Made by a program: the position numbers and the translations under genes. A stretch of 64,000 bases of DNA from Flavobacteriales bacterium (GTDB lineage Bacteria > Bacteroidota > Bacteroidia > Flavobacteriales_F > PHOS-HE28), in assembly GCA_020852835.1 (NCBI GenBank), contig JADZAC010000015.1:1-64000 (forward strand), read 5' to 3'. Positions 39,276 to 40,615 of this stretch are shown here, piece after piece. The notes below the pieces were generated by a model. It did not search any database, was not told the DNA's origin, and was given only the letters and a program-made list of their open reading frames with translations. Positions within the stretch are counted from its first letter, which is position 1; each line of letters begins with the position of its first letter.

Positions 39276-39342
39276 CAAAGTAGCACACACTGGGTGCTGC
39301 CGGACTCCAGTCCGGCGAGAAAACCCGTTGTGTGCTACTTTG
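39276..39342. repeat. Nested palindrome upstream of the RAYT gene
   Basis: An outer perfect 14-bp stem (CAAAGTAGCACACA at 39276-39289 with TGTGTGCTACTTTG at 39329-39342) encloses GGGT/ACCC pairs and an inner perfect palindrome GCCGGACT CC AGTCCGGC (39299-39316). It lies 38 bp before the transposase start and is the type of structure such enzymes cut. Confidence 0.88.
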
Positions 39343-39379: not shown

Positions 39380-40135
39380 ATGGACGATGCTTCTGATATA
39401 TCGGGAACTGGTGGGGATGCCAGGCCATCAGCCCGAAGGCTGAAGGAGAAGAAGGCACCCGGCTATGGCCGCTTGGGCAAGGGCTTGAAAGCAGCCGGAA
39501 ACTCCGGCGACCCGGTCTGGTGGGACCGCGGCTACCATCCGCATGTGGAAAGCCCGCGCTTGATCCAGCACGTGACGTTCCATTTGGCCGATAGCCTGCC
39601 GAGGGAAGTAGTGGAGAAGATGGCCGCGGAACTGGAACGTATTCCGCCATCGCTTCGTGACACGGAGAAGGAAAAACGGGTTGCGGCATACTTGGATGCG
39701 GGCATTGGCAGTTGCGTGCTGCGCATTCCGGAATTGGGTGAACTGGTGCAGCGGACCATTCTGCACTTCCATGGCGAGCGCTATACGCTGCATGCGTGGT
39801 GCGTGATGCCGAACCACGTACACGTGCTCTTCCATGTTGCAGAAGGCTGGACGATGGGCAGCATCATAGGCTCGTGGAAGAAGTTCACGGCGCGGAGGAT
39901 CAACAGCTACTTGAAGGAACAAGGGATGGGTGCGGTGCCAACGGGTGCTTCTGCCAGACTGGAGTCTGGCTTACCGCCGGTATGGCACCGCGACTACTTC
40001 GACCGCTTCATCCGCGATGCCGGGCACTACACCAACGCGGTGGACTATATTCACAACAACCCGGTGAAGGCGGGGTTGGTGCGGAAGGCTGAAGATTGGC
40101 GGTGGTCTTCGGGGTTTGGAGGGAAGGCGGGGTAG
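39380..40135 (+). CDS. REP-associated tyrosine transposase (RAYT)
   Basis: A 251-residue Y1/HUH transposase of the TnpA-REP family, which nicks single-stranded REP DNA. It carries the HUH motif in MPNHVHVLF (about residues 143-151) and the helix HYTNAVDYIHNNPVKAGLV (about 217-235) with the catalytic tyrosine region. The N-terminal 40 residues are unusual (Lys/Gly-rich, no homology seen), so the true start may lie further in. REP palindromes stand before, after and inside the gene; the inner one (39953-39970) is read as SARLESGL. The gene looks intact and may still be active. Confidence 0.92.
   Translation: MDDASDISGTGGDARPSARRLKEKKAPGYGRLGKGLKAAGNSGDPVWWDRGYHPHVESPRLIQHVTFHLADSLPREVVEKMAAELERIPPSLRDTEKEKRVAAYLDAGIGSCVLRIPELGELVQRTILHFHGERYTLHAWCVMPNHVHVLFHVAEGWTMGSIIGSWKKFTARRINSYLKEQGMGAVPTGASARLESGLPPVWHRDYFDRFIRDAGHYTNAVDYIHNNPVKAGLVRKAEDWRWSSGFGGKAG
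39953..39970 (+). repeat. REP palindrome inside the RAYT reading frame
   Basis: GCCAGACT GG AGTCTGGC, followed by TTACCG. The same 24 bases, palindrome plus TTACCG, recur at 40185-40208 outside the gene. It is in frame (about residues 192-197) and adds residues not expected for the family at that point. Confidence 0.85.
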
Positions 40136-40160
40136 GGTGGTTCAACAACCGGGTTTTTCG

Positions 40161-40202
40161 CCAGGCTGGAGTCTGGATTATGGTGCCAGACTGGAGTCTG
40201 GC
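40161..40202. repeat. Pair of REP palindromes downstream of RAYT
   Basis: CCAGGCTGGAGTCTGG (40161-40176) and GCCAGACTGGAGTCTGGC (40185-40202), the latter with TTACCG attached. They lie between the RAYT stop and the cut-off end of the Bro-N gene, forming a BIME-like cluster. Confidence 0.9.
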
Positions 40203-40218
40203 TTACCGACGGGTCTGT

Positions 40219-40479
40219 TCAGCCCAGTGTGTCGGTCAAGTATTTCTTCCCGTCCGCTGCGGTCAATTTCAGTCTGTGAGCGCCACTCACGAACTGCACG
40301 TTCTCCTTCAGGATCTTGCGTTTGAGCCATCGCCAATAATTCCCGGCTTTGGTATGATCGCGCTCTTCGTTCAAGATGCCAACGATGTCCACCACGCTGA
40401 ACCACCACTTGGCATGCTCCTCATCCCACACGGCGCGCACCTCGCGGTCGTCGAAGAAGCGGATGGAGATCTTGCTCAT
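40219..40479 (-). pseudogene. Truncated Bro-N domain (phage antirepressor-like) gene
   Basis: 86 residues beginning MSKISIRFFDDREVRAVWD and containing KWWFSVVDIVGILNEERDHTK and NYWRWLKRKILKENVQFV, the Bro-N/antirepressor N-terminal domain. Relatives continue past KKYLTD for more than 100 residues. Here the frame ends at 40219, 17 bp short of a REP palindrome (40185-40202). The C-terminal part is missing from the window, suggesting truncation when the REP cluster arrived. The start at 40479 is chosen because upstream in-frame sequence has no homology. Confidence 0.8.
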
Positions 40480-40561
40480 GCCGGAGTGTTGGCCTGCCTG
40501 GTGAAGGTGGAGCCAAGATAGGGGAGACCGGACATGAGCAGCGGGCCGATGGTCACTTGGC

Positions 40562-40615
40562 GATCTCCACGGGCAACTGACAACGAACAACCACGCCCTA
40601 CGCCCTACGAACTAT
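40562..40615. repeat. Interspersed repeat tract 3' of clpB
   Basis: GGGCAACTGACAACGAACAACCAC followed by CGCCCTACGCCCTACGAACTA, with the opposite strand of the same units (GTTGTCGGTTGTCAGTTGTC) on the 5' side of clpB. Together they bracket clpB as a long, imperfect inverted repeat pair. Confidence 0.6.

Follow-up and report, generated by a model that had tools for sequence, protein, structure and literature searches.

A REP palindrome lies in frame within the RAYT gene of the window (the whole 64,000-nt stretch of Flavobacteriales DNA analysed here). We propose that it is probably a member of the REP family of its own locus, tolerated in a disordered loop of the protein between helix alphaC and strand beta4, and homogenised with the REPs that flank the gene. 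Its position in the gene, the pairing of its stem, its match to local REPs and its turnover were each observed directly, the last three by comparison with genes from the same genus.

A REP unit within the RAYT reading frame

The gene at positions 39380-40135 (+ strand) encodes a 251-aa REP-associated tyrosine transposase (RAYT, or TnpAREP; Y1_Tnp family). The predicted protein matches Pfam PF01797 (Y1_Tnp; E 2e-7) and scores 92.7 bits against the NCBIfam model NF047646 (REP_Tyr_transpos), above the cut-off of 80. E. coli TnpAREP (4er8) is the best solved structure when compared with an AlphaFold2 (AF2) model of the window RAYT (pLDDT 80), with Z 14.4 and rmsd 2.7 over 140 residues. The HUH motif, N145-H146-V147-H148 (39812-39823, + strand), is invariant across 46 homologs, as is the presumed catalytic tyrosine, Y223 (40046-40048, + strand), which belongs to a YIHNNP motif and lines up with the tyrosine of YIYINP in 4er8. 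As a RAYT, it would be expected to bind and cleave its REP as single-stranded DNA, and the hairpin of which the gene carries a copy is probably one that it recognises.

The in-gene palindrome, GCCAGACTGGAGTCTGGC, is at 39953-39970 (+ strand) and is followed by TTACCG. As originally predicted, these 24 bases are in frame with the ORF, reading GCC AGA CTG GAG TCT GGC TTA CCG (A192 R L E S G L P199, codons 192-199; translated context …PTGASARLESGLP…), and recur outside the gene at 40185-40208. The coordinates first given for the palindrome are correct, but the REP unit extends beyond it: CAACGGGTGCTTCT, the palindrome and TTACCG together form a unit of about 37 nt at 39940-39976 (+ strand), as indicated by the difference in loop length among relatives described below, and by an inverted match between 39939-39970 and an upstream copy at 39299-39330 (32 nt, 78% complementarity).

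The unit falls within a loop comprising residues 181-201 (39920-39982, + strand), which the AF2 model places between helix alphaC (159-180) and strand beta4 (207-210). The loop has no regular structure in the model, with pLDDT below 50 at residues 191-195, and corresponds to a gap in the alignment to 4er8. It precedes Tyr223 and is away from the conserved motifs. The downstream helix that carries Y223 (residues 214-230) is intact in the AF2 model and in the alignment of 46 homologs, as had been predicted. Since the REP-encoded residues are in a disordered loop and the Y223 helix is intact, the conserved core of the protein is undisturbed by the REP.

Three further REP copies flank the reading frame. 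The downstream copy at 40185-40208 (+ strand) has the same orientation as the in-gene copy, with GCCAGACTGGAGTCTGGC at 40185-40202 followed by TTACCG, and a degenerate copy, GCCAGGCTGGAGTCTGGA, was found by mismatch search at 40160-40177 (+ strand). The upstream copy, GCCGGACTCCAGTCCGGC, is in the opposite orientation (39299-39316, - strand), with its foot, CTGGGTGCT, on the 5' side when read on the + strand. The upstream and downstream copies thus have their feet on opposite sides, the inverted arrangement of flanking REPs that is used to recognise RAYTs. The loop and downstream copies have an AGA stem and share the exact 24-mer, and the upstream copy has a GGA stem. Four sites in the window match GCCAGACTNNAGTCTGGC with three or fewer mismatches, as compared to a mean of 0.35 in shuffled sequence; none of 100 shuffles reached four.

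The upstream REP is enclosed by 20-nt outer arms that are 90% complementary, so that the region from 39276 to 39342 forms one long hairpin before the RAYT gene, with a predicted RNA folding energy of -43.8 kcal/mol (z -10.7). This hairpin could affect RAYT expression or terminate the upstream transcript; a scan for intrinsic terminators between 38900 and 40500 found none. Directly after the RAYT locus, on the minus strand, a short ORF (40219-40590) resembles a truncated Bro-N/antirepressor-like domain.

Pairing, local match and turnover among relatives

We compared 16 RAYT genes from one uncultured Flavobacteriales genus, including the window gene (genome G000). Thirteen of the 16 have a loop REP, with one to three copies each; nine have intact or nearly intact loop palindromes, and four (G018a, G011, G035a and G043) have decayed remnants. 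The other three (G019, G024 and G035b) lack a loop REP. Comparison with homologs lacking the insert had been suggested as a check on the original prediction, and such relatives do exist: at 63 nt, the loop of the window gene is 36 nt (12 codons) longer than the 27-nt loop of the REP-less G019 and G024, and a tandem unit in the G018b loop is likewise 36 nt. When the loop was left out of the tree, the three REP-less genes formed one clade (94/90); presence and absence require two changes on this tree. Two of the relatives have damaged reading frames, with a TAG near codon 240, close to the C-terminus, in the G031 RAYT (L009), and a frameshift at the loop, which carries a decayed REP, in the G043 RAYT (L183); hence, some RAYT copies look inactive.

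The stems of the loop REPs vary widely, with AGA/TCT, GGA/TCC, GGG/CCC, GCG/CGC, ACG/CGT and AAG/CTT all represented. Nonetheless, across 14 loop palindromes, 92.9% of cells are paired, and 15 cells have changed on both sides; none of 500 shuffles gave pairing as high. The foot, GG[TC]NN and usually CTGGG[TC]NN, is kept in 10 of 13 loop copies. The shuffle counts and the covariation rule out a chance palindrome. We also considered the possibility that ARLESG is kept for protein reasons and is palindromic by accident, given that a motif, A-x-L-[EV]-x-G, recurs in the loops. This is barely credible, because pairing persists while residues differ among relatives, an identical sequence is found outside genes, and some relatives are without the segment entirely. 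A conserved protein motif that merely looks palindromic is likewise ruled out by the loop codons, the REP-less relatives and the covariation. The original prediction would have failed had close homologs encoded the same residues with different codons; instead, residues and codons both differ and the palindrome persists, as expected for a genuine REP rather than an accident of codon choice.

Between G000 and G031, the in-gene palindrome and adjacent bases are identical (0 of 24 bases differ, as compared to 7.6% elsewhere), although 24 bases is a small sample; stronger conservation of the in-gene REP than of its background is therefore suggestive only. This identity, and the perfect pairing of the palindrome, could reflect selection for function rather than tolerance, with the same caution that only 24 bases are involved. 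In G004, the second loop unit mostly matches the window copy, with its palindrome one base off and one pair lost.

Loop REPs resemble the REPs beside the same gene. In seven of nine loci, the loop stem triplet is the same as that of a flanking REP, as compared to 2.7 loci expected. The mean match between loop and same-locus flank is 0.93, versus 0.60 when loci are permuted (p 0.0003), and p is 0.001 with the three closest genomes collapsed; these p values are a guide rather than exact, since the permutation takes loci as exchangeable and counts N-terminal in-frame copies as flanks. In L178 and L179, N-terminal tails in the RAYT frame are built of several in-frame REP units (AKLELGEPSG...) with a spacing of 48 nt or 33 nt. 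In related RAYTs from Solimonas, Polycyclovorans and an Acidobacteria MAG (L018, L019 and L020), REP pairs lie on or close to the first codons and recur after the core, with none in the loop.

In G004, G032 and the window genome, the RAYT locus is orthologous, since the genes to its left and right are shared, and by this comparison it is vertically inherited in these nearest relatives. The loop at this locus contains one AGA-type REP in the window genome, two tandem units in G004, and two inverted GGG-type REPs in G032. Since the loop REPs at an orthologous locus differ, REP content has turned over within an inherited gene.

We propose that the loop of an ancestral RAYT in the genus gained a REP unit of ~36 nt, or 12 codons, and that there was later a loss in one subclade or a second gain. 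The in-gene copy would since have been replaced, tandem-duplicated or homogenised with neighbouring REPs, through either recombination or strand transfer mediated by the RAYT, and exchange of this kind would allow it to track the current cognate variant. Insertions that break the frame, or that fall in structured parts of the protein, would be purged by selection. The local match is what homogenisation with the flanks would be expected to produce; independent re-insertion would leave a similar pattern.

An alternative possibility is that the in-gene copy serves as a template carried by the gene itself, keeping a cognate REP linked to the transposase during moves or erosion of the flanks, and able to reseed those flanks. 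The 24-mer and AGA stem common to the loop and downstream copies, but not to the upstream copy, would fit this idea, as would the scarcity of REPs away from the RAYT in a number of genomes. Nonetheless, we consider it very unlikely: the direction of copying is unreadable from the sequences compared, flanking copies outnumber in-gene copies at many loci, and vertical inheritance in the nearest relatives makes linkage unnecessary there.

REPs in other genes and the possibility of self-recognition

We found only four intact REP copies in the window genome, three at the RAYT locus and one at C71:290, and rejected an abundant, dispersed REP family in this genome for that reason; several genomes have hardly any REPs beyond the RAYT locus. 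The fourth copy, GCCGGACTCCAGTCCGGC at positions 290-307 of L224 (G000:C71), is itself read in frame and falls within an NRPS/PKS-like gene, where it is part of an interdomain linker (…RAGLESGGTKVDIAIIGMSGRFPG…). It is also present in G004, is decayed in G028, and is absent from 17 other aligned orthologs. In addition, an in-frame REP is found early in an HsdM-like reading frame in G010, G011 and G025 (L225, L226 and L214), which in G010 and G011 is close to the RAYT; the names of both genes come from our reading of the sequence. We suggest that insertion in frame into flexible linkers is a general habit of these REPs that extends beyond RAYT genes.

These insertions bear on the feedback loop of the original prediction. 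In the form considered here, the RAYT would curb its own expression by binding or nicking the REP carried in its gene or mRNA, with the palindrome under selection for this. Several observations are compatible with such feedback: the in-gene copy fits the REP family of its own locus, pairing survives double changes, the foot is usually kept, and the palindrome is unchanged between G000 and G031. However, in-frame REPs in the NRPS/PKS-like and HsdM-like genes mean that a RAYT-specific function is not required; they speak for insertions being tolerated in flexible linkers rather than for a feedback device particular to the RAYT. Together with decay of the loop REP in four relatives and its absence from three close relatives, they make a conserved control device unlikely. 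As regards mRNA, we know of no RNA activity of TnpAREP. The substrate on which TnpAREP acts is single-stranded DNA (PMC8266576), a further argument against feedback, and we consider self-recognition feedback, whether at the gene or at the mRNA, quite unlikely. It is unlikely, too, that the REP in the loop works as a functional element of either kind, recognised by its own RAYT and kept matched as a substrate for self-limitation or for reseeding of the flanks. Tolerated insertion with local homogenisation would account for the loop REP without a regulatory role, and any function that it has would be dispensable.

Relationship to known in-gene REPs

The window RAYT appears to behave like the TnpAREP proteins of subclass 2.4, with which we compared it by described features and to which we do not assign it. 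Subclass 2.4 is said to be equivalent to Bertels RAYT group 4. In-frame REPs inside tnpAREP genes of this subclass, between the HuH and Y motifs, have been described previously (Quentin et al., 2018; PMC6006769). According to the accessible text of that study, the likeness extends to the presence of flanking REPs in addition to the in-frame REP between HuH and Y, to the NH[IFV]H and YIxNNP motifs (NHVH and YIHNNP in the window RAYT), to the inclusion of Bacteroidetes hosts, and to a long REP whose stem has three G-C pairs at its base (PMC6006769). There are also differences. The insert is between alphaC and beta4 in the window RAYT, whereas the variable domain of subclass 2.4 is described as lying between beta3 and alphaC, although helix naming may differ; and the foot in the genus of the window is (CT)GGG[TC]NN, as compared to GT[AG]G at the stem base in subclass 2.4 (PMC6006769). 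None of the 13 loop copies and none of the 16 downstream copies has GT[AG]G at its stem base. A conserved tryptophan is followed by H in the window RAYT (W202-H203) and by M or Q in relatives; the pattern given for subclass 2.4 is WQ, in which Q may or may not be a defining residue.

Intragenic GTAG/CGTC REPs have been surveyed in DNA-repair and other genes (PMC3733652). These are likewise short palindromic repeats, in frame and in flexible parts of proteins, and our NRPS/PKS-like and HsdM-like cases are of this kind; the difference is that the survey covers other genes, whereas here the repeat is hosted by the transposase gene. Rickettsia palindromic elements (RPEs), which we compare only for their mode of residence, are also in-frame palindromic insertions tolerated in proteins, although RPE-1 is longer and RPEs belong to another lineage. 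We know of no RAYT as part of the RPE description.

The in-gene RAYT REP as a phenomenon was therefore already described in 2018 (PMC6006769, on the basis of its accessible text), and the window provides an unusually well-resolved new example rather than a new kind of element. What the present comparison seems to add is the covariation of the stems, the agreement of loop REPs with those nearby, their turnover where the site is orthologous, and the accompanying insertions into genes other than the RAYT; we ran tests of covariation and locus matching, and none is reported in the accessible text of Quentin et al. (PMC6006769). Our search of the openly accessible literature found no experiments on in-gene REPs of RAYTs.

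These loci bear on how REPs spread and remain matched to their transposase. The set is small and tractable, and within it the in-gene REP shifts in step with flanking REPs at one inherited site, such that REP turnover and the matching of transposase to REP become directly measurable; it also permits a clean test of whether the in-gene REP has any effect, by synonymous recoding. These loci also carry a warning for annotation, in that the variable loops and N-terminal tails of these RAYTs are translated repeats, and not conserved protein domains.
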